From assembly GCF_020921035.1 (NCBI RefSeq), contig NC_063150.1, forward strand, positions 33,093,826-33,157,825: a DNA stretch of 64,000 nt, read 5' to 3'. The notes beneath the pieces are model-generated. The model had not been told where the DNA came from, searched no databases, and was given only the letters and a program-made list of their open reading frames with translations. This DNA is from Rhodamnia argentea. Lineage: Eukaryota; Streptophyta; Magnoliopsida; Myrtales; Myrtaceae. Positions 4,441 through 60,400 of this stretch are shown here, piece by piece (within the stretch, counting starts at the first letter, position 1; the number at the start of each line of letters is the position of its first letter). The position numbers were made by a program, and so were the translations under genes.

Positions 4441-4536
4441 TAGTGGCTCACGCCTTTGGATGTCAAGAGAGGACTTTTCGTAAACACTCTGGCAGTCTAC
4501 AATGTAACCTCATGATCAAAACTCAACGTGTGATCT

Positions 4537-7500
4537 CTATTGCCGAGACATTGGTGCCGTTGGCAGGGACGTTGGCTGGTTGTAGAAACCACCTTCTGAA
4601 CCGGGGAAACCCTGATAGGAGCTTGCTGGAGCTATAGGGAATGGCGGTAATCCACCAGACACTGTCGTCCCAACTACTGGATAACCTGGCAGTGAATGCG
4701 GCTGCTGGCTCATGCTATAGTTGAATGGCATGCCAGTATTCATTGGTCCGGCAGCTTGCATGAACGGAGGCGGTGCTGGGTATGAAGCCATGGGTGGGAG
4801 TGGTGGCGGAAGAGGTGGAGCAGATGAAGGAGGAAGCGGATGCTGTTGCACACCGCTTGTGCCATCGTGTTGGAGGGACTCTGGATGGGGAAAAGGACGG
4901 ATAGTTGGCTGCTCGGGATTTTGAGATGGTATGTAAGGTGTTTGGTTGTTCTCGAGCCTAGGACGCTTTTCGGAAGCATGATCACCAGAAGAGTCCTTCA
5001 CGGGATTACCAATGACACCCTCAGATGCCAGCGAGGAAAGGACCATAGACAGCATTTCAGCTGATGATGTCGATGCTGTCAGCTTTGCAGCCACGGCAGC
5101 AGCAGCAGACTTCCGAGGGTCTTCTTCAGTGTGGCCAGGCTGCTCAGGATAAGATGGTGCCCGCTGCGAGTACATTACTGGGACAGATTGTTCCCTGTCT
5201 GCTGGTATGTACGTCTGAGGTGCTATGGACGTCTGGATATCTTTCAAGCTTTGGTTGGCCAGCAATTGACTAGCATTGCTACCAAGTAACTGTCGGCAGA
5301 TAGTGTTCGCCTGCTCTGACTTTGATTGAGCAGCCTGAAGCATTAATATAACTAATAAACAACCCATACTTCACAATAAACTGAGAAAGACCTGTAAAGT
5401 AGTAAACTCAACGAAGTATGCAGTCTTCTACACGCATATGGTATCTCATCCCTAGCAAGCACGGAAAGCATAGATAGGTGAGTTTTTCCTTCTTCTTCAC
5501 GGGGCAATGAGTGGGCTGGTGGCATGGCCATAGAGATTCGGTAAGCAAAAAATTCCTACAATCTGTAACTTAGTAGCAGATGTTTTTGGCTTTTGATGAA
5601 CCACAAGGCTTCCGCATTATGCCTCTTTTAAGTATTTAGCTTTACTGACTATTTCAAGGATAAAGCAGATTATTAAAGAAGGAAACAGGGCCAAACACTT
5701 CAACCCCAACCAAGCAGCAGGATGTTGATATTCAAGTGCATCCCTGGCTTAGAGCTTCCACTATATCTTTAACTTTTTTCAAGGGATGCCTTAACCTTTA
5801 TATATGGATTTCTCGGCATGCAAAGGATTATCGACCTAAACACCTTCTAATCAAAGAAACTTTCATCAGATGGCGCCAACAAACAAAAAGTAGGAACTGA
5901 CCTGAAGTTCATTGCGGACTCTGTCCAACTTGATTTCCTGATACTAGAACAATGTCAGTATGAACACAACCAAATCTAGTTCACTAAAACTACGTACTAG
6001 TCAAACCGAAAATGAAACCTGCTCCTGAAGAGCCTCCCTAAGATGAGACACGAGCCTTGCTCTCGAGGATTCAACTGTGGTTAATTGATCAATGCAGTTC
6101 CTCAGTACAGTATACTGTCCCTGCACCTCCTCCACGATTGCAGTGTCATGGGATCCCCCTGTTAAGAAAGAAAATTAGTTTGACACAGACGAAGTTCAAA
6201 AAATAATGGCAATTATTCTGTACTTCAAAAGAAGAAAGTCCGATCAGTTAATTGAGAATCCTGTTAAATTTTTTGACTCTCCAATACAAGCCTTCCGTCC
6301 TTCCTAGTCAACAACTTATTTTTCGACCTTATTCATGAGCCAATGTCCCAATAACAGAAAGATTAATTTACAAAGCATAATCCAGACCTTTAAAATGATT
6401 TTACTGTACTAAAGAATTAGGGCATTGAAACCCACGAGTTAAAATGCTGCTGACATAAATTTATTACAGTAGATAATTCATACTTCTCACGATATCGATA
6501 TTGATCAACAGATGGTTTAACATTTTGATTGGTTGCATTGATGACATTATTCAAAAGCCGAAAAGGAAATATCATGTTAGATCAGCCAACATCTATCCAT
6601 TAAAGTCCAGAATTTGACAAGGCTAAATTTGGGAATTCCTCCACTTCAGTTGGGTAGAACAGACAGGACATGACCCATAAAAACAATAGCCCTTGCCAAA
6701 ATCAGGTTGACCCTATTGTTTTACCAGAAATACGCAGAGATCATGAGTTCACAATAATCTCTGTAAACAGGAAAAGCATATGAAGAATAAAATCCATCAA
6801 TTGTAGTTCCCTGGCTAGCGTATAAACCATAAAGGGGAACTATTGATATAAGAAACAAACAAACATGGTCAACAGTTTTTTCCTCATCCTTCATGTTTGT
6901 GCATTAAGGCGGGCAACCCTGGTCCCAAGCTGCTGCCCTTCAGGTACATCAATATGTTTTGCTTGTCCAGACAAAACTTGCAAAAGAAAGATTATTATAT
7001 TTATTATCACAACACGGATTTCAGCACCCAAAAGGTGCATGTGGAGAATGGACCAGGGATACCAGAAATGGCTACTTAGCCTACAGACTAAGCTCCATAT
7101 TGCCGATTGCTGGTGATCTGGATCGCCAAACATTGTGCTCCCATAAAACTTAGAAAACCTACCACTCGAGAGAGATAGGGGAGGACCCCAAATGTGAAAC
7201 TTAAAAAACTCATGAGTCTGGTCTCCTACCAGTATTGCAGGCTGTGTATAAGGCAATAAAAGCCTTTTTAAATAAACTCGGGCCTTCTTTCAAGAAACAT
7301 GGGCTTTTCTTTCACTTTTGACTACAAATTGTTTCACACTCTCGGCAAGAAAACTAAGCCTTTAATTTACTTAAAGCAGAAAAAATTATTCATTTAGCTA
7401 AATTATAATTTTATAATTTCTGCATTCAATCTAAGCATCACTCCAAGTGTGTTTCCGCATTCACGTTTTGGTACCATGAGTGGAAAATTCCATGTTCGGG

Positions 7501-10500
7501 TAACTCTGGTATGGAGCGTACACAACCAGAGTGTTTGATTCATGATTGGTTACTCACGGGTATCCTACTGGAAAAGGAGCTAGATGTGTGTGTGTGTACA
7601 CTTCAACAGAAAGCAAAAAGTCATGCAATAATTTACATATTATTCAACTTCCAAAATTAGAGAAAAATTATATGAATTGACGTGTTTTGAGTCTTGTGAA
7701 GGTTACAGAAGCCTCTGATTTCAAAAAAGTCAAAAAGTGTCGGCTTTAAGATTTAGATCAAATAAAAAGCCATATGTGAAAAAAAAAAAATCCAAATAGA
7801 CCCCAAGGTGTTATAGATTCAGAGCAGAAACTGCATTTCGAGTACCTGAACTGCTGTCACTGCCAATCTCCTTTTCCACTTTCTCAAAACAGCTGATAGC
7901 ATTCCTATATTTGCTCAATACGACATCTTCATCAACTTGGTCACTATAAAGATGTTGATAATCTGACACTATTTTGTCCAGGATATTTCCAACAGGCTGT
8001 TTCTGTTTAAACAAAGAAAACTTGTAAGGGAAAAAAGTACATCAATCCTTATCTACTTTCTAAGAAAAAGAAAGAAAGCAATAAAGAAAGATAGAAAAAA
8101 GGAGTATTGGAAATAACATAAGCAGACAGAATTTGAGCTACCGGCTTATGTCCTAAATCCTTCCCATTCCTGTCACGGTTCTCCAGGTGTCTCCCGCCAA
8201 ATTCTTCCTTAAGAATCTGGCCCCTTGAACCAAAGACTTTCCTCTCTTCCCATATGTTAATCTGCAGGTAAAGCAGCACGAATTCAACATTGCAAATCAA
8301 ACATATTAACAATGCAAGCATTAGCTTAAATAAATGATTCCCCCCCCCAAAAATAAAAAGACAAAAGAAAGACTTGAACAAAAGAAGCCAGGCAAAGAAT
8401 AATGCATGATGGAGTACATTGTAGAGCTTTTACGGAAGAGAAATGTGGTCTGCATTGTCTACCAAACAGCAGAAGCATAAAGCGTGGCATCTCAAAACAA
8501 GTCATCAACATAAAAGTTACACAAGAGCTTCCAGAAATCATCCTAGGTATGATTCAGCAAGAATTACCCCGACTTATGGAGCTGTACATATTTAGAGGGA
8601 AAAGCAAGCCATCAGAATCTCAGAAGATCATAGGATCTACCAGATACACAAAAAGAAATTTCCTCAACCTTTAAGTCACTAAAGCTATGCTCAAGTATGA
8701 TTCGGCAAGAATTACCCCAACTTATGGAGCTGTACATATTTAGAGAGAAAAGCAAGCCATCAGAATATCAGAAGATCATAGGATCTACCAGATACACAAA
8801 AAGAAATTTCCTCAACCTTTAAGTCACTAAAGCTATGCTCAAGAATTCTTATAAAAGCTTCAGATAAGATTTTAAATAAAGTCTCGAGATCCTTGTCCAG
8901 CATCTCATGTTTGAAAATTCATGGGAACTAATATCCGAAATATGCAACTGTACTATCCTGTTAGATGTTTGGCTCATTTAGATGACACGATTATATTAAG
9001 AAGACTTTGGAAAAGATACAGTCAAGAAACAGAAAATAAAAATCCTAGACAAGGGCAAGACCCAGCAAGAGTTCATTGCTGGCTGGCAAGCAGCTACACA
9101 GATGTTGCTAGTCAGCAATAGGCAAGTCCGATTCAGAAGAGAGAGAGAGAGAGACGAGATGACATGAGATGACATGAGGTTAATGAAGGTGCTTAACTCT
9201 CTTATTATTTCCCAAAAGAAAGAAATGGAATTGTAGACAGAAGATGAAAAAAGTTCCTTTGAAGCGATGCTCACCCCTTTAAAAACCAAAGGAATGCCAG
9301 CATACCAAACAACCGAATTAGATTGAGGTCATAAAAAGTGAAATTCTTGCAGTTGAACTCTTACGTCTCAAAACCTCATAACATATAGGTTTTTCAAGAA
9401 CTGAAAACTCCGGCCACATCAACCACATTGCACGAGTATAAAGTAGATAATCGTATACAGTAATCAACTAAAATAAAGTTGCAGCTGCACAGGGAGATGT
9501 TCACATGTATGGAAATTTCCAGCATATGCAGCGTCCATATAATTTTCAAGTATGTTCAACAAAATAAAGTAGATATTGAACAAAAAGGAAACATATAAAG
9601 TAGATATTGAACCAAAAGGAAACATTAAATGGTTATAACCGATATTTCCACATACACTAATTTCTAAAAGGCCAACTTTCATCCAAAACCAAACCACCCT
9701 GGTCCCTCATAATGTTACCACAAATAACAATATGGTTACTAATGGCCGATAAATTGCACTCCAAAAGGCATTCCTTATTCGAGCAAGAATTTTGCACAAG
9801 TTCCACCTTCACCTATTAAATAATTCTTTTAGTTTGATTGGCAGAGATCACATCACAGAGCTGACCATATAAGGTCAAGATTGCTGATTTGACTTTGCCC
9901 TTACATATTTGTATACTGCCTAAGAGAACATAAACCACTAGACCAAAAGAGAGAGAGAGAGAGAGAATAAAACCAGCAAAAAATGGTGTAGCAGAAAGGA
10001 TGTTACAAAATGAATCATCTGGAGGACAAGGAGTGGAAATGAGGACACGGCATAGCACACTTATCCAATCCTCACAACAATGCCCCCACACAAGGGAACT
10101 GAGAACGAATTTTGCAAGGCCTTTCTTTATTACAGTCATTATCTAGCTACCAGCACGTAACTTCTTTCCAAGTCCTCATCCTTTAAAAGAGTTAGTTACA
10201 AAATGTACAATATTCAGATGCATAGTTTTCTTTCACATTAAAGGCATGCCAAGCATAAAGGTCATTTAAATGTATGGCAAACAAAGTTCAAAGTTACAAG
10301 CACAAGAGACATATTTAGATAGAAAAAAAGAAATTCATTTGATCGAATCAGTTTGGGTATTCAGGCTACAGGAAGAAGAATTGCTAAAGAAAATACAAAA
10401 GAATGCACCAGTAAATCACATGAAACCAAGTGGAGTAAGAAAAACATACCAATCGCAGGGCAGCAGTTTTTCCGAAATCATCCCCATTTTCAATTACATC

Positions 10501-14081: not shown

Positions 14082-14869
14082 CAGCGGTGTTTGCGTGCGA
14101 AGTGATGAAATTGAAACGAATAGCGAGTGACTGAGGAACGAGGAAGACGATGAAACTACGAGATTGGCCTTCTAGGCAGAAAGGAAATATTTGCGAAACG
14201 GCTTGCGTTTTTGCTCTCGCGCACTCCTCATCGTTTGAGGGGGTCGGGGAGAGGGGGAGAAAATTCTATGCGACGGCGCGCATTTATCTAATCAGAATCC
14301 GATTACAAATTAAACTCAAGGTTAAACAAAAAGCAAATTAGAAATTCTATCTTGCGAAGATTGAGCGCGGCAAAAACGTGCCAAGGCTACCCTTCTTTCT
14401 TCGTCCCTTCTTTTTCGTGAATTGCAAAACGTGAGTAGAGTTAAAACACATATGTATTCAGTTTAAGAAAAAAATTCGATAAGACTTGTCTGTAAGAGAT
14501 TCTTCCCACCTCGTTTAGGTAAATGTGTGCCCCATCTGCAGGCGACTCCGTAATATGATAGCACTCTATACTTTTCACTCAAATGAGATCAGTAAGGAAT
14601 GATGGCGTGATTGATGCGGGTTGGCAAGTGCCGATTCAAACATGTATCCGTTCCTCTTCGGCAAGCCTCGTTTTGATCCTAATGCAATTCGGGTCCTAAA
14701 TTTTCATCTCGAAACCCAACTTTGGGGGGGGGGAGGAATTGCTTGAAGAAAGTAATGGACTCTCAAACAACGCATTATTAACAATCTAATCACAGATGAC
14801 ATTATAATAATAGTTGTAAAATTATGCACCAAATTGACCATGTTGTTTATAGTGAGTGGCATCATATTG
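14082..14869. other. Intergenic spacer between CID gene leader and transposon nest
   Basis: Probably includes the CID gene promoter on the minus strand. A G-run at 14727-14736 is the only simple feature. No coding region is recognised. Confidence 0.5.
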
Positions 14870-15492
14870 TGCAGTGAAAACAAACAATAAAGTAACGTAC
14901 CGAGGAAATAAATCATACACGGAATTACGTGATTCGATTAGTGTGACATGCGTCACAAAGAGGGTAGCTCAAAATTACATGGTAGATCCGGCGATATGAC
15001 GAATATAACAACTACACTCTCGCTATTTCTCAGCCCATAATTACATCTAATAACTCGCATAGTGTTTAGCTTTCATAACTCCTAACAAATAACCTCTCAA
15101 TCTATACAAATCTTACGCGCAATGTTCAATAAGCTTCAATCACATAAATTCTTAGTGTAATTTAAAGATGAAAACCTTCACTACATGAATAACACGAAGA
15201 CTCAAACTGCCTTTACATCAACCGAAGCACACAATCCCACAAACATATATACAGCCAAGCAAAGTGGAGTAGCCAATTTAAACATATTCCATGTATTCCT
15301 AATTGAATTCAATTGATTCAAATCAATGAAGTCCAACTTTGTTTTTTCTATTTCGCTTGCTCGACTTCAAGCTGAAAATTAATTTGTGAGCTCCTCCTTT
15401 TTTCTAATAGCCGCAACTAAAAATTCCATATTCTTCACTTTATTTGGGTTGGTTATTATCCAATGGCTCGGACTCAAACTATATTTTCAACA
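14870..15492 (-). repeat. 3' LTR of copia A
   Basis: About 623 bp. It matches 18006-18530 joined to 28912-29022. On the minus strand it starts TGTTGAAAATA, preceded by the purine-leaning GTAGAGAT. Confidence 0.8.
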
Positions 15493-18005
15493 ATCTCTAC
15501 TTTGGCTCGACGTTGGAGTCAAGTCACAACCCGTTTGTTAGAATCGAATTTGCTGTTGGTTCCCAAAACCTCTCGTGGGATCAACTGCCATAGATATCTT
15601 TTAAGTCCAAGTCACGATTAAATTTTAATGTAACCGTATACCATATCAAAGTACCAACTCTATATACATCTTTAGCTACTCCACAAGAATTCTCGAACAT
15701 GCATCCTCTATCGCAATTGCGTCCATATTTATTAGGAGATCAAACATGTAGCTTGTTAAACCGAACAGCAACAACAATTGTTGACTCTACATGCTTCATC
15801 TCTCTACAAGCGCCATGTGTGTTGATTACCATGCTAATACCCGCTACTTCAAGAGTTTCGGGTTGCAACTTCGCCTTAAACTCAATACCATCCAAATTCT
15901 TATAAACACTACCACACTCACTTCTACCAATAAGTATATGAGACCCATCAAATATAACTTCTCCGTTGACAACATTTATTTCCAAGCACCATAATCAATA
16001 GCCCCGTTCTCCTTGTGCATAGTCTAGGAATATGCACTTTCATGCTCTCGCATCGAGCTTACCACCACTCACTTGAATATAAAATGGGCAATTAAATATT
16101 CTAAAAATAGAATAATCAACGACATTACCCAACCACAGTCCTTAGGATCCGATATCCAATAACAATGAGCGGCTATTTATTCACTAGATAGCTCATCGTA
16201 TTAAGCACATCAGCTAGAAATTTCTCACCCATACCAGTACTATAGAGCATTTTATGAGTCGTCTCAAGTAACATTCTACTCATTAAATTTGCAATCTATT
16301 GCAATTATTCGAGACTAGTGCGATATCTCTCTATATTTTCTTCATCTAGAATTTGCTTAATAGCTCCATGCATAAACTCCATGCCATGCTCGATCTTCTT
16401 ACTAGTCTTCTTTTCGATCAAAGCTCTTAAATGCTTGATCCTAATAATGACATCAAACTTGTGTCTTAGCAAAAACATCTAGGCCCTACTCGAGGAGCCA
16501 TCCACAATGTTTAGCATAAATTGTAGCACTCCTTGCAAACATTCAAATGAACCAACTCTGCAACCTCCATGATTTCTTCGACTATCTTCTTGAATTGCAT
16601 TCTCTTCCATTTTTCTAAGTCGCAACACTTACATACATTCAGTTTCTCAATCACATAACCACATAACAGATTCCTTTCACTCAAATTCTTTAGGCTTTTC
16701 TCACTAATGTGCCCCTACCGCATATGTCACAATTCGGACTCTCAAACAAATATATCTGACGTCTCTATGGTGAAATTCGTCATTGTCTCACCTTAAAGCT
16801 CATACAAGCTATTGTGCTTAATTTTTCTTATTATCAACATGACACCTCAAATATCATTCGGAACTCCAATTCTAAAATATATCGGCACTTAAATAATCTA
16901 AAGTACTTAAGGAAATCAAGTTCTTCTTCAATTATGGGACATGCCTCATTTTAGTTGATATCCTTACAATACTATCAAACATTCTAATTTTACCAATGCT
17001 AACACCCATAACATTGCACTTAACGTTTGCACTTACCACTCTTCGTGCACTAATACATAATAAACTAGTTCTTATTTTTTGTGGCGTGAATAGATAATTA
17101 GAATCCAGAATATATCCATTAAACAAAGAATCATCAATGATGGATAAGACATAATCATCATCATCCAACACATCCTCTGCAACTGCAGCAATATCATTAG
17201 TAGATTCAAGTCTAATTCCCTTACCATTATCGTTATTCAGCTTAAAGCAATTCCTTCTAAGATACTCACTAGCCGTGATGCCCACTAGCTGTGATGCCAA
17301 CAGACTACAACACTACTCCTCTATTGACTTCGTTTGTTTAGGTTCAGATTGCTCCTACTAACACGAGTATCGGTTCTTTCTCTACCTTCACATACTAAAA
17401 CAGCAAGTATGTGTTCACAAATTCTCGCCTACAGAGGTCTTCGCTTAAAATCAAATCATGAACTAACATCAAGCTTGTTGATCCAAATGTTTACTAACGA
17501 CAATAATAGTAGCATGGCAGGCGGACCTATACTTCTTGTTTTCATTAGGACTCCTTGAGAGCATTCCAATTATCGGATAATGAGGATAGTATAATTAAGC
17601 ATGTAATTTATAATCAAAGTCAATGTCATCTAATCTCAATTGATTGACAGCCACATTGAATTGATGGATATGCTCAACAACCAACGTCCTTCTGCGATGC
17701 TTTAAGTAAAATAGACATAGCATTAAGTAGTCCCACATTGATTTTCTCTATTACAAAGTTATTACGAGACAACATTAATCAAATAACATCAAATGCCTAT
17801 CTGTCCAACAATTCTTAATCAACTTGCTTCTCAACTTTGGATTCTTCCGAACAAAGATAAGTGCATAGTCCTCTAGTATAGATAATCCCGAATATACATA
17901 TTCTAGAAATCAAAGTCATTCCCATCAAATTCGTTGATTTCACTTTTTCTTCTTCCGTCGCCATCGATTCGCTTCAACTTATCCAAGCCTAACTTCGATA
18001 CCAAT
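15493..18005 (-). pseudogene. Broken gag-pol remnant of copia A
   Basis: Minus-strand frames, with many stops and shifts, show pieces in copia order. Near 17300-16932 there is a stretch RRNCFKLNNDNGKG followed by DDDDYVLSIIDDS and YILDSNYLFTPQKIRTS, which resembles the zinc-knuckle to protease region. Around 16550-16100 lies an integrase-like piece (SRMLLETTHKML, then STGMGEKFLADVLNTMSYLV). At 15985-15740 lies an integrase C-terminal-like piece (EINVVNGEVIFDGSHIL). Nothing resembling reverse transcriptase or RNase H remains before the 3' LTR, so the 3' half of pol was deleted. Confidence 0.75.
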
Positions 18006-18530
18006 TGCTACAAAAAAAAAAAAGTAATCAAACAACAAAATAACATAACAAGAGAATAAATCAAAAATCAATTACACAAAAAGAGATGCACGAAATTCTA
18101 CTATAAATCAAGTAATATAGCAGATATTACAACCACACTCGAGTCACTCAAGCACTCTTAGTGATTCTCAACCTCAATTGCACTCAATAACTCACATGTT
18201 GTTTAGCTCTAGTAATTCCGCACCAAATAATATTTGAAATATATAAATCTTACTCGGAAGATTTAATCAGTTTCAAACACACAAATTCTTAGTGTAATTT
18301 CAAAAATAAAAAACTTCACCGCACGAACGTCATGGAGACTCACTCTGCCTCCACATCAACCACAACACATAAAACCCATAATATCTATATATGTGTATCT
18401 ATATAGAGTAGCCGATTTCAAGATGGAAGCATATGTTTCATTTAATCCCGATCGAATTCGATTGATTCAAGTCAACCACATGAAACTTTCCTTTTCTATT
18501 TTACATGGCTGACTTGAACATGAAAATTAA
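18006..18530 (-). repeat. 5' LTR of copia A, larger piece
   Basis: It matches 14870-15382 in order. It stops at the TAA target site of the Harbinger insertion; the remaining ~111 bp resume at 28912. Confidence 0.8.
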
Positions 18531-18551
18531 GGGCTCGCATGAAAACACTTC

Positions 18552-21054
18552 AAAATTTTCATTTCTCTGCTAGAAACCCATCCGGCGGATAAATGCGTTT
18601 GATAAAAACGTGATCAAAGTAGAAAGCGGTTTGATAAAAAAATTTGACTTATGGTTGTGTTTTTCAATTACGTAGTGAAAAATCTTGCCCGATCAGATTT
18701 TGAGTTTCATCCGAGAAGTAAAAAATGTTCACTTCTCTCGGTCTAGAATGGCTTCTGTTGTGAACTCCTCTTCTCTATCGATTAGATTTTGAGCCTCATT
18801 CTCTTATGTGAACGCCCGAGTTCTCTCCCTCTTCAACGCCGAACGTTTCTCTCCATATCAACGCTCCACAATGTTCTTGGTCACTCTCAACCACACATCC
18901 ATCTCCGCCTCCATTGTCGCCTCCTAATTCGCACGTCCGACAAACCTCTTCTCAACCGCAATTCGTCTTTTGTGTCAAAGGAAGTCGGATCTGCGAGATT
19001 AGGGTTTTCTCTCTCTATTTGGCTTCACTTTCCTCTCACCTCGGTGGTTGCACGTTCGTCCTTTGTCACCGCATTTTTTAATTCTAAGCGTCGCCTCATT
19101 TCGGTTCCGGTGTATCAATCATAGGTCCGAGCCGCCATAACTTTGAGATCTTTCGAATATTTGGGAGAGAAATCTTGATGCGTTTCGTCTCCCTGTCTTC
19201 GAGGACATGTAAAATTTGAAGCTTTGAAGTGGAGGAGTGCTGGTACGTCTTCATCTTTATTAAATCCTGCTCTTGTGATTTCTCTGTTACTAATGTGTGC
19301 TTAGTTGTATTATTTGCTTCCGGTTTCGTGCGGCTTGTGGAATTTCAGTTTGTCTCTCTCCCCCTCTTTCGTATGGTATAGCTTGTTTAGCTCATCCCGA
19401 ATCTGCAGGATCAATGCACTTTTTTTTGTTGGTTGGGACGTTATTTTCGAAGTGTGGGCATGTTGGTTTTTTCCCTCCGGGTGTTGTTGCATCTTTGCTC
19501 AATTGATTATGCAACTTGATAGCTCCCATTCATCTTTCACACCTGAATATGTCCCAGTAGAACTTTGACTAATTGAGTTTTACAAAAGAAAAATATTCCA
19601 AAAGAGTTATTCGAGAACTCTAATGAAATAAGACCCAGCAGTCCCCAAAAGCCCACATTAACACTCAAGCTATCATTCTACAACTCCTTATCTCTAATAC
19701 TGTAGGTAGAAAGGGGAGAATTTTGTAACAAATGCCCTAACTGAAACTCTTGCATAATTAGAAGAAAACTACGTAGCAAATTTCGAATCACACAGAGTTG
19801 GATGAAAGAAAGCGTGGAAGGAAACAATTGGCTGACATAGAACACTGTCACCTGACATGCGGCTCCTATTGGGGGTTGGAAGCATTTACTAGGGTGTTGA
19901 TCACAATATCTATGAGAAGTATATTGATTTCGTTGAAATTTTGATCTCATGAAATGTCACTACATTTTAAGGAAATTGTTTCATCCCAGGAAACGTCACT
20001 ATATTTTAAGGGCACCTTTGTCAATTAGTTGCTTAACAAGTTTCCTCAAAGAGCCGTTACCCCCCCAAAAATATATATATGCGCACGCGTGTGCGTGTGT
20101 AGTTTTCACCTCTAATGAGATAGCAATCCTATATTGTTCCCATTATCTGCTAAATTTGCGATATATTAAATGTTCATTTGCCAAGTTATAGGAAGAGCCA
20201 TCGATATGCTCCATTTCTTGAACATCATAGTACGTATACTGCGCTAGGTTTCGCGGCGTGAACGGAATTATTTCTCATTAGAATGGGATAGCAAACCTTA
20301 ATTGATTGGCTAAGTTGTGTGAGCGTCAATGGAGAACCAAGTCAAATAGTACAGGCACAATGCAAAATATTATCACCTAAAACGATGAACATATATGTGA
20401 AAGGGATATATCTACTCTTCCCCATTCGGTAGATCTATCTCTATGACCTTAGTAATCTAATGTTGTTGCGATTGCGGGTCAAGCTTTGGGACATTGGTAC
20501 TCATTTATCTAACCTTCAGAGTCGGACACAATGGTGCTGGCCTCGAGCATAGCTTGTGACAATTTGATGCTATTATGTTATGTTTAGATTGGTTGTTGTA
20601 GATCCTTCTTTCCTGTTTATTTCTAGTGCTAGTATCACTAGGTGTATGTGTACATAGACGAATACGCTCAGCTGCTTTAAACTTGGATTGCTTGATAATG
20701 CTTACGATGGTTTAACATGTATGTAGGGATTTAATGAGCATCGGATAGCATGTATGTAGACATCTCTTTTTGCAATAAAACTTCTTGCTTCATGCTTTCT
20801 CTGCACATAACATTTCTTTTTTACATTCTATCTGATTTCTTGAACAAGAATAGGATCATATAAGCGATACCCTTCGGAAGGATTGCATTTAGTCAACAAA
20901 GGTAGTGATATGCGCAACTTTTGCGCTTCAAAATTACTGTTTCAGTAGATTAATTATTATGAGATGAGCATAAGCAAGTTCTCTATGGATTGAACCGATG
21001 TTTTAATTCATTTTAATGATTTGGCTCATGTTATACTCGATCGGTTTACATTAA
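18552..21054. other. Left interior of the Harbinger element, no intact gene
   Basis: Contains a 111-residue plus frame at 18789-19124 without a recognised domain, a possible splice donor near 19240, and otherwise AT-rich DNA. The CT-rich start and the donor would suit a leader exon for the Myb/SANT-like ORF; this is inference. Confidence 0.4.
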
Positions 21055-21329
21055 ATGGCATCTCAAAAAGAAACGGTCATTGCTAAGTGGACCGAGCCAT
21101 TGACGCAATTATTGGTAAGCTTGATGGTAGACGAGATTAAGAAGGGGAATCGAAGTACCTCTACTTTCAACAAAGCGGGGTGGCATAACATTTAGCGCGA
21201 GTTCAATAAGTAGACAGGGTGCCAATATTCTATGGACAAGTTCAAGAACAGGGCATTCAAACCGAAGAAGCTGTATGGCATTTTCAAGAAGCTCCTTAAC
21301 CAAACCGAATATTGTTTCTTGTTTGGCAT
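21055..21329 (+). pseudogene. Myb/SANT-like DNA-binding protein, probable Harbinger ORF1, broken
   Basis: The frame starts MASQKETVIAKWTEPLTQLL and continues with EIKKGNRSTSTFNKAGWHNI, the tryptophan-spaced pattern of the plant Myb/SANT-like domain. Two in-frame TAG stops follow close together (about 21193 and 21211), after which the same frame continues through KKLYGIFKKLLNQT. Copia B then interrupts it. The sequence past the insertion (27635 on) contains ENFWIHYL in a neighbouring frame, which may be the continuation of the domain. In PIF/Harbinger elements this protein usually assists the transposase in binding the element's ends. A non-transposon Myb/SANT gene is possible, but its position inside the TIRs favours ORF1. 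Confidence 0.65.
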
Positions 21330-21334
21330 GGCAT

Positions 21335-22178
21335 TGTTGTTGCCTATAGATGTTCGTATATGTAAAATAACGTTAATCGACAAACCTGAATCCAAACGCA
21401 ATGAGTAGTCTAAATGTAGAGGAATGATCCGAGCCTAACGAAATGACGTTGTGTCCTTAAGACAAAATTTTCCCCTCAATCGGTACCCAAGGTTCTTGGA
21501 CAATTGCCTCCCAAGATAAAACGAATCGCCTTTCCTCCAAAGCGGTACTTTTTCGGAGAAAATCTTCGAACGCACTTTGTAGAATAATTGCACAAATGAT
21601 GAATAGTGAAATGAGAATGACGAAAAATGACAGTTATCTCTAATGCGACAGTCAATGTTCTATTTATAGACAATGATGCAAAGAGTCATGAACGAAAGGT
21701 TGAGAACGTCAACGAAGAGTCACAAATCTTTACGGTTGATGAAGGGTTACGAACCTTCATGAAGGAACATGAACCGAATAGCTCTCTTTATTGGAACAAA
21801 CAAACATGTTCGTTCAAATAAAAAAAAATTCTGAACATACCTGTTCGGACATGTCCATTCGAATTGTGTCCGTTCGGTTTAAAAAAAAAGAATAGAATAA
21901 ATAAAACCGATAGGTGTAAAAAAAAAAAGGAACGCGCGGACTCGGGCCCAAACCGAGCCGAGCCGCCGCCGCCGCAAGCGCGCGCATGTGTGGGCCGACC
22001 TAGCTTTGCGTAGATTCTCTCCCTTCCACAAAAGTGGGGTGCCCCTTGGGGCCCAAACCCATTTGTGAGGTTTCAATATTTAAACTCATCTTCCATCTAC
22101 TCTTTTTCCCATGTGGGACTCTCCATCCTTCATTTCTCATTCAACTTCTTATGGAACTTTGAAACCAAAGTTCCAACA
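21335..22178 (-). repeat. 3' LTR of copia B
   Basis: 844 bp, closely matching 26728-27629 apart from scattered substitutions, a missing ~48-bp duplicated block, and a differing GC-rich trinucleotide tract. Confidence 0.93.
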
Positions 22179-22190
22179 ATCCCCCACATG
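22179..22190 (-). other. Polypurine tract of copia B
   Basis: CATGTGGGGGAT on the minus strand abuts the 3' LTR start TGTTGG. This is the usual position of the plus-strand primer in LTR elements. Confidence 0.75.
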
Positions 22191-22735
22191 AATGAGAAGT
22201 TCGGTTATCACGACTCTTCGTAAATGCATAAGATGCAATGTGCGATTATTCAATGAGAGACGATTGCATCGGGATAAGTAGTCCGAGATTTTGAACTTTC
22301 TCTAGTGAGACCTATCGGACTTACTCGGTTAATCGGTAGACTTGATGTCCTTGAACTGTCGACCTTTGATGTAAGCCTAGACAATAAAAATCACACAATT
22401 ATCTCTCGAACAAAGTTAGTTCTCACTGTTGTGTTCGTTTTGGCCATGAACATTGCCTGGCTTCATAAGTGCTTTAGAGAATTCGGCCTTTCAAATTCTC
22501 ACAAAAGCGGCCCTCACTTCACACTCACATAGGTGATTTCTGAATATGTGGTATATTGCATACCCGATTCGGAATCATTAAAAGTTTACGCTTAACCTCC
22601 ATATATTAGTACTATCTTCATACGGGAATGAATAAGAGTTAACATTACTCTACATCGCCCGCATAACTTGGTTGTCCCATTAAACCTAGATCTTGGGATC
22701 TCCAGTCAACTAAGTAGGGTTCTCGCTATGATGAC

Positions 22736-25700
22736 TTATTTTATAGGCTTTAAACCCATTCCCCTTGATGTTTTCACAACCGTATCTCTAGTTAGGCCTT
22801 TTGTTAATGGATCCGCTATATTATCTTTTGACTTCACATAGTCAATTGTAATAATTCCACTAGAGAGTAGTTGTCTTACAATATCATGCATTCGACGTAT
22901 ATGTCGAGACTTACCGTTATACATGACATTTCTTGCCCTACCTATTGCCGCTTGACTATCACAATGAATACACACGGTGGCACTCGGTTTAGGCCAATTA
23001 GGAATGTCTTCTAAGAAATTTCGAAGCCACTCTGCTTCTTCACAAGCTTTGTCCAAAGCAATAAATTCTGCTTCCATAGTAGATCTTGCTATACAAGTTT
23101 GTTTGGATGATTTCCAAGACACTGCTCCCCCACCAAGCATGAACACATATCCACTTGTTGATTTTGTGTCTTTTGTGCCGATTATCCAATTTGCATCACA
23201 GTATCTTTCAAGTACCGTTGGATACTTTGTGTAGTGTAAAGCATAGTTTTGAGTATGCTTCAAATAGCCCAATACACGTTTCATAGCTTTTCAATGATTT
23301 TCATTTGGACTAATTGTAAATCGACTTAGCTTGCTTACCGCACAAGCTATGTCCGGTCTAGTACAGTTCATAACATATATTAAAGCGCCTAGTATACTAG
23401 CATACTCATTTTGAGCTTTGCTTTCACCAGTATTCTTCGAAAGATGTAAATTAACATCTATCGAGGTCTTTATTGGTACAATTTCTAAATTCTTGCATTT
23501 TTCAAGTATCTTTTCTATATAGTGAGACTGTGATAATGCTAATCCTTTAGATGTTTTGAGGATTTTAATTCCTAAAATAACATTTGCAACCCTCATGTCT
23601 TTCATATCAAATTTGCTTGTGAGCATGCGTTTGGTCGCCTTGATGACCTCACTATCGCCGCCTATTATAAGCATGTCGTCTACATAGAGACATAAAATGA
23701 CAAATCTATTATGAGTGCTCTTAACATATACACATTTATCGCACTCATTAATTTTAAAACCATTCGACAACATTACTTGATCGAATTTAGCATGTCATTG
23801 TTTTGGTGCTTGTTTCAACCCATAGAGTGACTTGATAAGCCGACATACTTTTTTCTCTTGTCCTGAAACAACGAACCCTTCCGGTTGTTCTAGATATATT
23901 TCTTCTTCTAGATTCCCATTTAGAAAAGCTATTTTGACATCCATTTGATGGATTTCAAGCCTGTCTACATTTGCTATAGCAATTAACATCCGTATAGATG
24001 TAATTTTCGTGACAGGTGAATAAATGTCAAAATAATCAATGCATTCTCGTTGTTTGTAGCCTTTTACCACAAGCCTGGCCTTACACTTATCAATAGTACC
24101 ATCTGCTTTCATTTTCCTCTTGAAAATCCACTTGCTTTGTAGTGGTTTATTACTAGGAGGAAGGTCAACAAATTCCCAAGTATGATTTGATAAGATGGAT
24201 TCGACTTCACTATTGATAGCTTCTTTCCGGAACGGGGCTTCTGGCGATGTCACAATTTCTTTGAATGTCCGATGCTCATTTTCTAAGAGATATGTTAAAA
24301 AATCAGGTCCAAAAGACGTGGAAGTCCTTTGTCTTTTACTACGTCTAGATCCATCCTCCATTGGATCACTTCTAGATATAGTATCTCGAGACCTCTTATT
24401 ATTATCAATTGGTTCATATACTATGTTATACGGAAATATATTTTCAAAGAACGAAGCGTCCCTTGATTCAATGATCGTATTAACATGTATATCCGGGATC
24501 TCTGACTCATGAACAAGAAAACGATATGCATTGTTATTATGAGCATATCCGATAAAAATACGATCAACAGTCTTTGGTCCTATCTTAACCTTTTTAGGTT
24601 TAGGAACCGCAACCTTAGCCAAACACCCCCACACTTTAAGATAATTCAAGTTAGGTATTACGCCTTTCCACTTCTCATAGGGAGTGTGTTGTGTCCTTTT
24701 GTGGGGTACTCTATTTAAAATAAAATTTGCTGTCAAAATAGCTTCCCCCTACAAATTCTGCGGTAAGCCGTAACTATTCAACAATGCATTCATTGTTTCT
24801 TTTAAAGATCGATTTTTCCTTTACGCCAAACCAATCGATTGCGGTGTATAAAGAGCGGTGAATTGGTGAATGATGCCAAACTCAGAGCATATTTCCTCCA
24901 AAGGAAATTCATATTCACCTCCTCTATCACTTCTTATCATTTTAATTTTCTTATTTAACTGAGTTTCAACTTCAGATTTATAAGTTCTAAAAGCATTAAT
25001 CGCCTCATCTTTGCTACTAAGCAAATAAACATAACAATACCTTGAGCAATCATCTATAAATGTGATAAAGTACTTATTACCACCCCTTGATGGTATTGAT
25101 TTCATATCACATATATCTGTGTGTATTAAATCTAAAGGTTTTGTGATTCTATTATTCTGAGAATGAAAAGGAGACTTAGAAAATTTATATTCAACACACA
25201 CTTGGCACTTTTCACTTGGATAGTCAAATTTTGGCAATAATCTCATACTCATTAATTTCTTTATTGATTTATAATTAACATGTCATAGTCTAGCATGCCA
25301 AATATTAGAAGACTTAAGCACATAAGTAGAAGCATTTTTATTCATATCATCCTTGGATACAACAGTCATTACATTCATCTTGAACAAACCATCACTCGGA
25401 TAACCCTTTCCTACATACATCTCATTCTTGAAGAGTACAAATTTATCGGATACAAAAATTAACTTAAAACCATTCTTGTTAAGGAGAGATCCGGACACTA
25501 AATTCTTACGAATATCCGGCACATACTGAACATTATTTAGTGTTACAATTTTTCCAAATGTCATTTTCAGACCAATCTTTCCAACACCTCTAACCTTAGA
25601 AGTTGATGAATTACCCATATAGAGTTTTTCATCACCCCCCACGATAGTGTAGGACGAGAACATCGATCTGTTTGCACGGATATGACGAGTTGCTCCAGTA

Positions 25701-26635
25701 TCAATTCACCACTCCTTGGGGTTTCCCACCATGTTGCATTCGGATATCATAGCAGTAAGATTGATATCATTAACGCCATTGGAAATCTATTCCACCACAT
25801 TCGCCTGAGTTTTCTGTCTTTTCTTGGCTCTGCAGTCTTTGGCTTGATGTCCAGACTTTCCACGGTTAAAGCACTTGCCAACGAACTTCTTCAGGCCTTG
25901 GGTGAATCCCTCTCCAGACTTGTTAGGCATTTTTCTCTTCTTGTTGGGTTTTGATCATTCTTCAACAACATTGGCCCTTGAAACCTCCAGATTCTTGCCA
26001 ACTTTCTTTTTAGAGAGCCTATTGTCTTCCTCAATCCTCAATCGAACAATCAAGTCTTCAAGTGACTATTCCTTTCTCTTGTGTTTGAGATAATTTTTGA
26101 AGTCTCTCCAAGACGGTGGCGGTTTTTCAATGAAAGCGACCACTTGAAATGATTCACTTAAAATCATACCTTCAACATGAATGTCATGCATGATCACTTG
26201 AAGTTCCTGAACTTGACTTAAGAGGGTTTTATGATCTACCATCTTGAAGTCCAAAAATTTGCTGACGATGAATTTCTTCAATCCAGCATCTTCTATTTTG
26301 TACTTCTTGTCAAAACTTTCCCATAATTTTTTAGCCGTTTTCAGCGGACTATAAACATTATAGAGGAAATTGTCAAGACCATTAAGGATGTAGTTACGAC
26401 ACAAAAATTCGGAATGCTTCTACGCATCAACTACAGCAAACCTTTCCTTGTCTACCTCTCCTTCATCCAACTTAGGAGCATTCTCATTGAGGAACCTTGC
26501 TAGATTCAAAGTCATGAGATATAACAACATTTTCTGTTGTCATCTCTTGAAATCAGTTCCGTTGAACTTTTCTGGCTTTTCTCCATGAGTCGGAACCGAC
26601 TGAATAGGCGTAGGCGTTATCGATGTTGATGACAT
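22736..26635 (-). pseudogene. Gag-pol polyprotein gene of copia B, disrupted by stops
   Basis: One long minus-strand frame starts at 26635 (MSSTSITPTPIQSVP) and ends at the stop at 22736. In order it shows: gag core; a zinc knuckle CFNRGKSGHQAKDC near 25850 whose second Cys is Arg; protease DTGAT near 25700; the integrase zinc-binding region and catalytic core (HTDICD, DDCSRY, RSDRGGEYE, 25250-24850); reverse transcriptase with YVDD near 23680; and RNase H with [10 protein letters not shown] near 22950. About eleven in-frame stops interrupt it and no clear frameshift is needed, so it decayed mainly by substitution. Gag-pol would have produced particle, protease, integrase and reverse transcriptase proteins; it cannot now. 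Confidence 0.92.
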
Positions 26636-26727
26636 TTCTAATACGAAAGCAGAATTTATTCAAAATAAAGCAATTATACGAACGAAGCAACTAATACCGA
26701 GAATATAAACAAAATTTGTCTTAAGAT

Positions 26728-27629
26728 TGTTGTCGCCTATAGATGTTCGTATATGTAAAATAACGTTAATCGACAAACCTGAATCCAAACGCAATGAGTA
26801 GTCTGAATGTAGAGGAATGATCCGAGCCCAACGAAATGACGTTGTGTCCTTAAGACAAATTTGTCCCCTCAATCGGTACCCAAGGTTCTTGGACAATTGC
26901 CTTCCAAGATAAAACGAATCGCCTTTCCTCCAAAGTGGTACTTTTTCGGAGGAAATCTTCGAACGCACTTTGTAGAATAATCGCACAAATGATGAATAGT
27001 GAAATGAGAATGACGAAAAATGACAGTTATCTCTAATGCGACGATCAATGTTCTATTTATAGACAATGATGCAAAGAGTCATGAACGAAAGGTTGAGAAC
27101 GTCGACGAAGAGTCACAAATCTATACGGTTGATGAAGGGTTACGAACCTTCATGAAGGGACACGAATCGAACAACTCTGATAAACGGTTACGAACCTTCA
27201 TGAAGGAACACGAACCGAACAGCTCTCTTTATTGGAACAAACAAACATGTTCGTTCAAAAAAAAAAAAATTCTGAACATACCTGTTCGGACATGTCCATT
27301 CGAATTGTGTCCGTTCGGTTTAAAAAAAAAAGAATAGAATAAATAAAACCGATAGGTGTAAAAAAAAATATGAGCGCGCGGACTCGGGCCCGAACCGAAC
27401 CGAGCCGAGCCGGCGGCGGCGGCGGCGGCGCCCATGTGTGTGGGCCGACCCGGCTTTGTGTAGGTCCTCTCCTTTCCACAAAAGTGGGGTGCCCCTTGGG
27501 GCCCAAACCCATTTGTGAGGTTCCAATATTTAAACCCATCTTTCATATACTCTTTTTCCCATGTGGGACTCTCCATCCTTCATTTCTCATTCAACTTTTT
27601 TATGGAACTTTGAAACCAAAGTCCCAACA
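26728..27629 (-). repeat. 5' LTR of copia B
   Basis: 902 bp. Compared with the other LTR it has an extra copy of the GGTTACGAACCTTCATGAAGG-type block (about 27140-27205) and a longer GGC run near 27411-27429. Confidence 0.93.
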
Positions 27630-28887
27630 GGCACCGCTGAAAACTTTTGGATACACTACTTAACGATTCACCGATTTCCCCATCAACCCAAATGAAAAAA
27701 CTACAACCTTCTCCTTTATTGCTATGATTATATCTTGGGCAGCCATGGTATCGTCTTCTCCGGTTTTCCTTCGTCTTTGCTGTTCGCAAAGGAGCTTTCA
27801 AGCTAGAATGGCAAAACACATCGTCCATTGGAGGAATTGATGTCTTCGATTGTGCCATATGCAACGGAAACGTGAGGATAGCATGAAATCCTTGAGGATG
27901 AAGCAGGTGATTTTTAGGGATTCCAGTATCTCTAAAGTGGTTTCGCCCAACACCGAGCATACGAGTTTCACGCCCAAAAAATTGTGCAATCGATCATAAG
28001 TAAGGCACTCGACAGTAGGTTAGGCATATCCACCATACACAATTAGCGTAATCAAGAAGGACATTCAAGATTATGCAAACTCACCTTAGCGATGAGCTGT
28101 TGGCGCAATTGGAAGTCGAAGCAAAGCTGGCAACACCGGCTCAAGTTGATTGGGGGAACTCACCGAGTCGTCGTGGTGCGAAAAACCCCGAGTGCATTGT
28201 CTCATTGGCTATCGTTCATCATCGCGGGGTCAAGGGCTTTGGTGGTGAGCATCCAACGGCCGACGAGAGTGGCCACAAAGGGAGGAGCGAGGGTCGTCGA
28301 GCATTCGATGGCCGTCGACGGCGATCTTCTGTCATAAAGGAGGGACGATCTTCGATGGCTTTAGCATAAGAGACGTCAAAGAAAACCCGTTTGGTCGTTC
28401 CCACGAGTACTAATTTGTTTTTTGGACATGGCAACTCACTAGTAGCGGTGCAATCGGAAAGCTTTCGATGGAAAGACATCGTCCCCGAAATGGACTCATT
28501 CTCTCATATGGGACCGAAAGAGGACGATGAAGAGAAACCAAACTAGGGTTCTCAATTTGCCTGGTTTGTTTTTGGGAGGAGCAAGGGCATCGTGTTTTTC
28601 ATTTTGCCCGGAAATGAAAGATGAGAACAAAAAAAAAAAAAAATTGTTCTACTAACATCTTCGAAGTAGAAATTTCCACCCATTATCAAATGAATTTCTA
28701 TTTCATAAGTTGAAATTTCGAGTAATTATCAAACGAATTTTTATTTTAGAAGCTGAAATTTATTTCGGTTATCAAACGCATTTCTTAACCGGAAATCAAC
28801 TTCTCACGCGGAAATTGAAAAATCAACTTCTGCTTAAAAGCAAAAGCAGAAAAACCAACTTCTTGCTAGAAACCATTCTCAATTGGA
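27630..28887. other. Right interior of the Harbinger element, no intact gene
   Basis: Frames of about 100 residues exist on both strands (plus 28073-28369, minus 27580-27960 and 28219-28479), but they overlap each other and show no domain that I recognise. The part nearest 27635 may hold the tail of the Myb/SANT-like ORF. Confidence 0.4.
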
Positions 28888-28908
28888 GAAGTGTTTTCAT
28901 GCGGGCCC

Positions 28909-29022
28909 TAACCTTTGTGGCTCCCCCCCTCTTTAATTTTCATCACGAAGAAGTCCATATTCTTCACTTTATTTGGGCTGGATATTATTTGACGGGCTCA
29001 AACTCGAAATATATTTTCAGCA
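28909..29022 (-). repeat. 5' LTR of copia A, outer piece
   Basis: Begins with the duplicated TAA (28909-28911) and continues the LTR: CCTTTGTGGCTCC, then CATATTCTTCACTTTATTTG, matching 15383-15492. It ends ATTTTCAGCA. Confidence 0.8.
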
Positions 29023-29853
29023 CATAGATTGAGCCCATGAATAAGAAAGTGACGTGTTCGAAATTATTATAAGCACATGAAATGTCTTCGAGATCACAAT
29101 CATCTACTGTCGGGGACGTCTTTGTCGCAATACTTATAATCTTTTAGCGTGTGACTCTAGATCGAGACAACATGTGCTCGTTTGCGGTTGATAAGATTAT
29201 CCATGACAAAATGTTTGGAGGAACAAGTTATACTGTACTTTTGATGAATGGCTTAGTTTAGAGGCAGTCCTAGTTTATAAACTGTTTCACCTGTAACGAG
29301 CTGTCTTAGGATCAAACGCAAATGTGATTATGATCGTTTTAGATATGCTACGAAGTTGAGCTCGACAAGTTAATTTCTCGATAACAAAGTTCAAAATCAA
29401 TCACAGAGCTAAATTTACAATTGAGGCTTAAAAAAAAATTGACAATCGGTTGAGAATCTGATGCCAACATTGCTACAGTTCTTGCATATAACCTCCTTAG
29501 ACTACAAAAGAATAAATTTTACATTGTTCTTAAGCATATGATACAGACATGATCTCACAAATGACATGAAAACACAAACCAAGACAAAAAAAACAAGATA
29601 TACAGACAAAACGGGGCCGTTTTATCAGCCCTAAGCAACTCAAAATCTTGTCACAGTGACAAAGAAAACCAAGTGCTTGTAGATGTCCCGGTCACAAGCT
29701 ATGTTGGCGAGTTATCGAGCCATCAACTCAAATGGAGCATGAAACAAGTCTCGGTCAACGCGTATTTCCATGGCGTCAAATGAGCTTCTGTTCTTTTTCC
29801 CTGTAGATTTTTAGATGGGATCCTGGACTACCGATCGAGGTTCTGTTCACTTT
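29023..29853. other. Spacer between transposon nest and EXO70 gene
   Basis: AT-rich, no coding signal. The part nearest 29853 presumably includes the EXO70 3' untranslated region. Confidence 0.5.
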
Positions 29854-32165
29854 CTATTGCTTTCTCCTGCCTGTGGTAGCCGGGGTCCCGTCGAAGAGCT
29901 CGTCGATGTACGTCTCCAAGTCCTCTGGCTGATACTTCACGTACTTCTCCGACTGCCTTCCCGCCGTGAAATGCTGCGAGTGCCGGCCCAAGAACGACCG
30001 GTACGCTGGAATCACCACCGCCGCTATCGAAACCCTAAGCTCTGATTGCAACTGCTCGTCCTTCACAATCCACGCGCTCTGCGTCTTGTGGATCTCCTCG
30101 AACATGGCGTTGAAGGTCTTGAATCTCTCCTTCAGCTCCGGCTTCGAGACCTTCCCATGCACGTTCAACCCTTCGTCCCGGAAGCAACCCAAGACTTTAC
30201 TCCAAGTTTCTCTCTGGTAATTCTTGTGGTACTGCCTTAGCTCGGACGATCTCTTGCGCCGCCAGTTGTCGCCCGTCAGCTCATTGATCTCCGCCGAGGC
30301 TTTCACTTTTTGCAAGATGTACCGTCCATTGTTCATCATAAATATGAAGCTCAGCGACACGTCCTTGTAGAGCTTGGATTTCACTTCAAGATTCGAATCT
30401 AGCAAGTCCATGACTTTCGTTAATTGGATTGAGAATGGCGACGATTCCTTCTCCGAGTCGTTCCGATTGCCCTGGCCTTGAAATTCTGCTCTGTTGTTGG
30501 AATCGGCTCGTTCGATCTTCAAGTGCTCTTTGAAAACTTGCTCTAGGGTTTCTTTGTACTCGCATGCATACTTGAGATAGTTTACCGTGTAACTTGTTAA
30601 GGGGTGAACTGCACCTCCAGGCACAGGGTTTTTACCTGCAATAAATGGACACGATCAATGATAATTTGATTATCATCTGATTGCTTCAATCTATTAAATC
30701 TAATCGAGGAATGCCAGTTGGGGATTGAATGTCTGACTTTCTTACCGCTATCCGATTTGATCGAGTTTTCTAAGTCACTGAACATGCTCACAATAGCCTC
30801 GCCGATCCGAGATCGTGCAGTATTAATCTCCGACCTTAATTGATTCGCACCGTCTTCATCCTTGAAATATCGATCCATGGTAGGTGTCGTATCTCGTAGA
30901 GTCTCATACATGTCCAGGAACTTGAACAACTTCTCGGCTGACCGCTTTGATGACATCGCTACTGCTTCAGAGAAATTCAAGATTTGAATCAGCATGCTTC
31001 GAGTGAGATTATAGAATAGATGAGTCGCGATCGATGGATAGCCCGCGAACACAGCCTCCGCGAGCCTCAGCTCTCGATGGAAATGCACCGACGCACATTG
31101 TTTGAAGGTTCTGATCCACTTGACGATCTCTCTCTCCAGAGCTTCCCATTGCATCTTTTGCACGTCGTCGATGCTAATGTTCTCAAACCCGAACTTGTTA
31201 AATAGTTCTTCGAACGAGTTCCTCCTCGTGACTATATAAACTTGACAGCACTCGCTTTCATAGCCACATGAGACCATCTCCTTTGCGATCTTGTTCAAAA
31301 TGGAAACGATATCATTCGGGTATCCAAACGAATCGCCCTCATCAATGGATTGATCTGATTCTTCGGTGGATTCTTGTTTCGATTTGACGCTTTCTTCTTT
31401 CTCTAAATCAATAGGCTGACATTCATCTAATAACACCCTGGAAATATTGAAAGAAATTACTCGGTAGATAGCGTGCATTCATGCCACACCATTCAATCAG
31501 AATGAATCATGACATGTCTTCATTGCTAAAAACGGAGGAAAAACTAAAGCTAAGAGGCTAACGTAGTTGAAAGCTTCTTTTTACCTGAATTCATCTTCCA
31601 AAAACGACAGAGCTCGTTGTTGGATGCTCCCGACCCGATTATTCAATGAACCAAACTTTTCTCTGCATTTAAAGGGTTCAAGTACAGTTGCCAGCTTCGA
31701 GAGGCGATCGACAATTTCCAGGAAAGAATTAACCTCTGGTTCTTGAGACCATTTCGCCTTCCCTTCACCCAAATCGGTGCAGTATTCCGCTACTTTGGCC
31801 TCGACAAAATCCATGAGCTTGCCGACGTATTCGGGGATCTCCGAAGAATCATTCTCATCGCTAGTGGAGGAAAGAATTGTGGCAAGCTTGTCGATGTCTT
31901 CCAAAGCCTTCTCAAGGCTGTAACAAAGCTTGCGATCAACATCACCATCATCAACCTCCTCTTCAGCAATCTCACTTGTATCGATCGTTTCTTGATCTTT
32001 CTTCCCCTCATCCTCATCGTTTCTCTCTACATGACCAGTTACCTGACCTTCTTGTGGATCGGCTTCAGGGGACCTCGGCGGCACCGGTGAAGAATCACCA
32101 TCCTCTTTCAGATCATGCTTTCTCGGGGTGATCGGGTTGGATTTGTCAGAAGGGTCGCTCTCCAT
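29854..32165 (-). CDS. Exocyst complex subunit EXO70, probably clade C
   Basis: Three minus-strand exons, 32165-31585, 31437-30746 and 30635-29854, join in phase across GT-AG introns of 147 and 110 bp and give 684 residues. The N-terminus is acidic and low in order (about residues 1-75, rich in D and E). The Exo70 C-terminal helical-rod domain covers roughly residues 290-665, with landmarks DVQKMQWEALEREIVKWI, VHFHRELRLAEAVFAGY, GGAVHPLTSYTVNYLKYAC, MNNGRYILQKVK and KYQPEDLETYIDELFDG. Known family role: EXO70 binds membrane phosphoinositides and helps the exocyst tether secretory vesicles at the plasma membrane. The acidic N-terminus and the HPLT..T.NYLKYACEY motif suggest the EXO70C group, linked in Arabidopsis to pollen tube growth; clade placement needs a tree. 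A CT-rich leader on the sense strand lies upstream (GA run at 32424-32457 on plus). Confidence 0.94.
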
Positions 32166-60011: not shown

Positions 60012-60400
60012 AGCAATATAATTTTTTTTTTGAACTTTGACGTAACGTGCAATATAATCCCTTTTGAACTTTTAATTTGATCAATATGATTCCCGAACTT
60101 TATCGCAATGTGCAATGTGGTCCTTGAATTTTTAATTTGAGCATTATGGTCCCTGAATTTTTGGAACATATCCAACTTAGTCCTTGAATTTTTAATTTAA
60201 TTTAGGAATGACATTTGGTATTTTCTTATAATTCGGGGACTAAGTTGAAATTGTTCTAAAAGTTCGGTGACCACATTAAACAAATTAAAAGTTTAAGGGC
60301 CACATTGCACAATAACCTAAAGTTAAGGGATCATATTGGTTAAATTAAAAGTTTATAAACCACATTGCACATTGTGCTAAAGTTTGAAGATCATTTATGT
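60012..60400. mobile_element. Repeat family 2, complete foldback copy
   Basis: The left arm repeats AATATAATCCCTTTTGAACT-like and GCAATGTGGTCCTTGAATTT units. The right arm carries their reverse complements: AAAAGTTTAAGGGCCACATT, AAACCACATTGCACATTG. The centre is short. Confidence 0.65.

Follow-up and report, generated by a model that had tools for sequence, protein, structure and literature searches.

Nests of long terminal repeat (LTR) retrotransposons in plants, of which 1491 nested pairs are reported for 12 genomes (PMC6911290), are the closest described counterparts of the locus analyzed here, a stack of three transposable elements in a 64,000-nucleotide stretch of the Rhodamnia argentea genome (NC_063150.1, positions 33,093,826 to 33,157,825 of the forward strand; referred to below as the window). 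As in the nests described there and in the work on REANNOTATE (PMC2672092), the younger element lies within the older, containment dates the insertions, and LTR divergence is read alongside; the pairs in those accounts place one LTR element within another, whereas the middle layer of the present nest is a DNA transposon that has undergone a deletion of its own. This middle layer, H, and its relatives share with the PIF/Harbinger elements PePIF1 (PMC6327408) and Ping/Pong with mPing (PMC2836001), as portrayed in those reports, a 3-bp target duplication, GGG-type terminal inverted repeats (TIRs), and a Myb/SANT open reading frame (ORF) 1, together with a DDE_Tnp_4-type transposase (in the relatives of H) and the occurrence of defective deletion copies. 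After GGGCCCG, the TIR of H continues as CATGAAAACACTTC, unlike the TTTG of the PIF/Harbinger elements compared, and whereas the PIF elements described in PMC6327408 have two ORFs, five relatives of H carry a third ORF, in antisense orientation, which contains a GRF zinc finger and has a hydrophobic C terminus. The outermost and innermost layers, A and B, bear comparison with Ty1/copia retrotransposons: B is like them in its gag, integrase, and RVT_2 order and its 5-bp duplication, and A may be like them in a candidate GAG-pre-integrase remnant and is unlike them in its interior of only ~2.5 kb, where a domain scan of seven ORF pieces and searches with B pieces as queries found no reverse transcriptase.

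The nest of three elements is real, and its order is A, then H, then B. A nest as such is ordinary for a plant genome; what the present analysis adds is the internal deletion in H, the identity of the ORF hit by B, and the existence of three-ORF relatives of H. The locus provides a clean worked example in which containment, target duplications, and divergence concur, and comparison with paralogues, taken from the window's own genome (346,658,060 bases in 74 contigs), uncovers a fourth event that is invisible from the window alone.

Results

The insertion of H into A is recorded in the right LTR of A. The left LTR of this minus-strand element (its 3' LTR, from 14868 or 14870 to 15492) matches each half of a right LTR whose first half (18006-18530) ends in the TAA (18528-18530) at which H inserted and whose second half (28912-29022) follows a second TAA copy (28909-28911, so that copy and half together span 28909-29022). 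H lies between the two TAA copies, and the matches between the A LTRs stop and resume there: the match to the first half (blastn, 4.2e-37) stops at 15382/18530, directly adjoining H, and the second half is matched over 28945-29022 (3.9e-12). Local alignment scores of 195 and 81 compare with maxima of 32 and 28 from 300 shuffles each, and global alignments also pair the left LTR with both parts. The other LTR of A serves as the unoccupied paralogous site for the insertion, and it agrees with the boundaries of H.

H (18531-28908, plus strand) comprises 4078 bp of its own sequence when B and one copy of the B duplication are excluded. It starts with GGGCTCGCATGAAAACACTTC at 18531 and ends at 28908 with a terminus whose reverse complement is GGGCCCGCATGAAAACACTTC; 20 of the 21 bases of these TIRs agree. 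The left 300 bases have at least 40 genome matches (the best 40 of 210 candidates), and ten stretches, representing nine relatives, all from the same genome, were fetched. Exact 3-bp duplications (TTA, TTA, TAA, CAA, TTG, and TAG; TTA or TAA in three of the six) flank six of the eight relatives in which both ends were read, and two of three bases agree in the remaining two; the right ends of three relatives were placed by eye, one of them being shifted by 3 bases afterwards. The fullest counterpart, L017 (C11), has 8132 bp between its termini, carries TIRs and a TTA/TTA duplication, and is 88% and 90% identical (blastn) to the two parts of H in the window. It encodes a predicted transposase (PF13359, DDE_Tnp_4 type; E value, 1.1e-12), as do several other relatives by their matches; H itself lacks it, since no match to transposase queries was obtained anywhere in the window (best E value, 0.58). 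The Myb/SANT domain (PF12776) is recognized at an E value of 3.4e-21 in L017 and of 1.4e-6 in the first ORF piece of the window, where the truncated, Myb/SANT-like ORF (21055-21312, plus strand) contains two in-frame TAG codons and corresponds to residues 1 to 86 of a 109-residue relative (E value, 4e-43). On its termini, its duplication, and its identity to L017, H is classed as a defective PIF/Harbinger member.

B (21335-27629, minus strand; 6295 bp) has LTRs at 21335-22178 (844 bp) and 26728-27629 (902 bp), the longer of which carries an extra 48-bp tandem copy. The LTRs differ at 38 of 844 aligned positions (95.5% identity), and LTR relatives elsewhere in the genome reach 92% among the matches listed (the best 40 of 251 candidates). 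Minus-strand domains comprise gag, Pol_BBD, rve, SH3, and RVT_2, in separate ORFs, and B can be assigned to Ty1/copia by its LTRs, its 5-bp duplication, and the position of a predicted integrase upstream of reverse transcriptase. The duplication is read as GGCAT (21330-21334) and GGCAC (27630-27634); with it counted once, the flanks of B equal in length the unoccupied L017 counterpart, GGCATGGTGCCTCTG, which has no duplication, and the 5-bp target duplication is therefore correct. The sequence that B entered is the antisense GRF zinc-finger ORF of H. Residues 1 to 75 of the 143-residue relative match 27858-27634 on the minus strand (E value, 6e-41; PF06839 in the window at 1e-5 and 26.0 bits, with a cutoff of 25.9), and residues 74 to 83 give a short, weak match on the other side of B, at 21339-21310 (E value, 3.7).

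Containment and the target duplications place A before H and H before B, and three divergence measures agree with that order. These were the Kimura two-parameter (K2P) distances of the A LTRs and of the B LTRs and the terminal branch of H in a tree. For A, pooled K2P was 0.242, 0.295, 0.356, and 0.333 under four gap settings (identity under one setting, 77.8% over 468 positions and 88.7% over 97); for B, it was 0.0466 to 0.0479 over gap settings, with bootstrap limits of 0.032 and 0.065; and for H, the terminal branch was 0.063 and the K2P to the nearest copy was 0.104. Expressed per lineage, as half of a pairwise distance, the values are 0.12 to 0.18 for A, at most ~0.05 to 0.06 for H (from half of the nearest-copy K2P and from the terminal branch), and ~0.023 for B, the figure for H being an upper bound for its insertion because the last ancestor common with a sampled copy predates that insertion. 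The order A, Harbinger, B had been proposed in an earlier note made from the letters alone, which described a PIF/Harbinger element at 18531-28908 splitting the right LTR of A at a TAA and copia B at 21335-27629 flanked by GGCAT/GGCAC; each of these statements is borne out by the LTR matches, TIRs, and duplications given above. Its rebuilt LTR of about 637 bp compares with 525 + 111 = 636, a length obtained from coordinates only, and both outcomes that it named as fatal to its order turned out the other way: the two halves of the LTR could be aligned on either side of the TAA junction, and the LTRs of B are far less diverged than those of A.

A fourth event was missing from the earlier note. 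Comparison of H with L017 leaves L017 positions 3009-7091 (4083 bp) without a counterpart in the window, and the junction falls at 21308-21310, where AT at 21309-21310 is compatible with both sides and base 21308 departs from the left source. Homology to H ends between 21305 and 21310 in all six fetched relatives that arrive from the left (L017, L018, L019, L020, L022, and L026), and B starts later, at 21335 (blastn); the intervening bases, 21309-21334, match L017 from 7090, past the transposase and adjoining the right part of H (L017 7115). The corresponding ~4.1 kb of the relatives contains the transposase along with the ends of both the Myb/SANT and the GRF ORFs. By these alignments, the Myb/SANT ORF was truncated by the deletion and not by B. 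B lies only ~24 bp from the deletion junction (21308-21335), a proximity expected by coincidence in about 1% of cases (2 x 24 / 4078).

The third ORF was followed in relatives of H. Antisense GRF zinc-finger ORFs were located at L017:6911-7339, L032:4101-4532, and L033:5482-5913; that of L017 has 143 predicted residues, a PF06839 match (E value, 6e-9), and a hydrophobic C terminus (mean Kyte-Doolittle value, 2.99 over 17 residues). Among 21 stretches scanned for Myb/SANT, DDE transposase, and GRF ORFs (the short relatives L021, L023, and L024 were left out), all three were found together in five (L017, L032, L033, L034, and L035). A C5 element read from L033 with L046 encloses the three ORFs in 9251 bp (C5:979605 to C5:988855), with TIRs that agree at 21 of 21 bases and a TTA/TTA duplication, and the right ends read in L032, L034, and L035 share its right terminus, apart from one change in one of them, beside TTA or TAA. 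Six other stretches (L019, L020, L022, L026, L043, and L044) have Myb and transposase with no GRF match, and seven (L036 to L042) have GRF without the family Myb, L042 also having a transposase match, though a more distant one (46% identity); both sets weigh against reading GRF as a third gene, the former meaning that it was lost there or is not required for every copy. One stretch (L018) has Myb alone, and two (L025 and L045) have none of the three.

The ratio of nonsynonymous to synonymous divergence (dN/dS) for GRF between L017 and L032 to L035 was 0.29 to 0.34 (dN, ~0.12; dS, ~0.38) in four pairs that share L017 and are therefore nonindependent. For the same two subfamilies, it was 0.24 to 0.54 for Myb (32 pairs), 0.13 to 0.23 for the main transposase segment (28 pairs), and 0.25 to 0.56 for the transposase N-terminal segment (28 pairs). 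GRF is less constrained in comparisons with the third group, L036 to L042 (0.35 to 0.69 in 7 pairs and 0.23 to 0.86 in 28 pairs), and ranges from 0.37 to 1.29 within that group (21 pairs). Between L017 and the four, differences by codon position numbered 16 to 21, 17 to 19, and 25 to 28, a modest third-position excess; with L036, the counts of 20, 20, and 19 give no such excess. These codon comparisons support selection on GRF, though weaker than that on the main transposase segment. Linkage was assessed between 49 of the 94 GRF matches (the first 51 less 2 second pieces of loci already included) and 43 of the 130 Myb matches, taken from the top of the list: 7 GRF matches, the window included, had a Myb match within 12 kb, against ~0.15 expected. 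Linked cases made up 6 of 13 close GRF matches and 1 of 36 others; with linkage residing mostly in the close matches, GRF genes in general are not established as Harbinger genes. The single linked case among the 36, a distant GRF match (C8:13647252), lies 3.9 kb from a distant Myb/SANT match (C8:13651109) on the same strand and, for that reason of orientation, was not counted as a three-ORF arrangement.

Discussion

We regard as very probable an account in which A was entered by H and H by B, with a loss of ~4.1 kb from H. A copia-type element on the minus strand would have integrated downstream of an Exo70 gene, ~830 bp past its stop codon, and then decayed; H would have inserted at a TAA within its right LTR. 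H would have lost ~4.1 kb, in all likelihood at this site, through interrupted gap repair or through illegitimate recombination between sequences sharing no more than 2 bp; and B would have integrated, with a 5-bp duplication, into the remaining antisense GRF ORF, ~24 bp from the junction. The nesting, the duplications, the loss relative to L017, and the order A, H, B are shown by the data, whereas how and where the loss took place is inferred. Interrupted gap repair is a mechanism usually proposed for internal losses in cut-and-paste elements.

Where and when the deletion arose are the points on which other histories compete. H might have arrived already shortened, with B inserting later, and short deletion forms that retain termini do exist (L021, L023, and L024), each with break points of its own; we consider this unlikely, since a genome search that tolerated up to 3 mismatches finds the 24-base word spanning the junction a single time, which favors loss in place over the spread of an already shortened element, and since L017 is the only locus that pairs a Myb match of at least 75% with a right-part match of at least 85% over the GRF stretch, among the matches listed (the best 40 of 41 and the best 150 of 180, respectively). 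Alternatively, the deletion may have followed the insertion of B, its right end falling beside B. The structure permits this, as the deletion lies entirely to the left of B and the B duplication is intact, and a junction that occurs once suits a late event; nothing direct speaks against it, the 26 bases that separate B from the junction do not suffice for dating, and structure alone gives no order for the two events. We hold this sequence of events to be possible but doubtful. That B itself cut the Myb/SANT ORF, as the earlier note had it, is very improbable: the Myb homology does end within 24 bp of B, but the six relatives part from the window at one point before B is reached, and the bases between the end of Myb and B match L017 beyond the transposase. 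Of the earlier reading, the order thus stands and the target of B changes from the Myb to the GRF ORF. An assembly artifact or a chance juxtaposition of unrelated repeats is equally hard to credit; every piece is a repeat and the assembly was taken without reads, but target duplications and LTR and TIR partners agree across the boundaries, as do the unoccupied paralogous sites (the other LTR of A for H and L017 for B).

Several observations weigh against the account that we prefer. At 10 to 12% divergence, the junction-word search, limited to 3 mismatches in 24 bases, would miss 21 to 32% of sister copies, along with every sister copy that has an indel. The account leaves the closeness of B to the junction unexplained, and the two copies of the B duplication disagree at one base. 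Support for the placement of H in the tree is low (0.216), so that its branch length is approximate; being an upper bound, that length does not by itself make H older than B. Finally, the copia label of A depends on one domain match that lies under its cutoff.

We tentatively propose, on the codon comparisons and shared arrangement, that the H lineage carries an antisense third gene, maintained by selection together with the Myb/SANT and transposase genes, whose product of ~143 residues would combine a GRF zinc finger, a charged stretch, and a hydrophobic C terminus, and that full members are three-gene elements; we place this somewhat short of an even chance. The putative protein may act in transposition, in how DNA ends are handled, or in countering host silencing. 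Our literature searches found no paper linking GRF with Harbinger or with transposase, and neither term, Harbinger or GRF, occurs in PMC13317346. Should the GRF gene prove functional, a description of plant PIF/Harbinger transposition in terms of two proteins would be incomplete for the H lineage, and the three-ORF relatives would outweigh the nest in importance.

A itself is an old LTR element without recognizable reverse transcriptase, and it probably belongs to the copia type: its decayed internal region (15493-18005, minus strand) holds a GAG-pre-integrase remnant at 16511-16714 (PF13976; E value, 2.3e-5; 24.5 bits against a curated cutoff of 28.4), and six B ORF pieces give weak matches to 14868-18530 (best E value, 0.014). 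On the minus strand, a TGGTATC motif immediately internal to the right LTR resembles an initiator-tRNA primer site. A candidate target duplication, CATAT (14863-14867) and CATAG (29023-29027), was read by eye and agrees at four of five bases. No close copy of the left LTR besides its partner was found among the listed genome matches (the best 40 of 54 candidates), the others covering parts of it only. Gene conversion between the LTR parts is not claimed; the second part is less diverged under one gap setting only (Fisher P, 0.018), and the parts dated separately under the other three gave P values of 0.71, 0.16, and 0.33.

The Exo70 exocyst gene (Exo70_N and Exo70_C; 29854-32165, minus strand) is present as several open pieces, its stop codon lying ~830 bp from the right end of the nest. 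Elsewhere in the window, 8547-8846 consists of two tandem copies of ~148 to 152 bp that are 97% identical, and 60033-60384 forms a long imperfect palindrome (71% reverse self-match), possibly a small inverted-repeat element.

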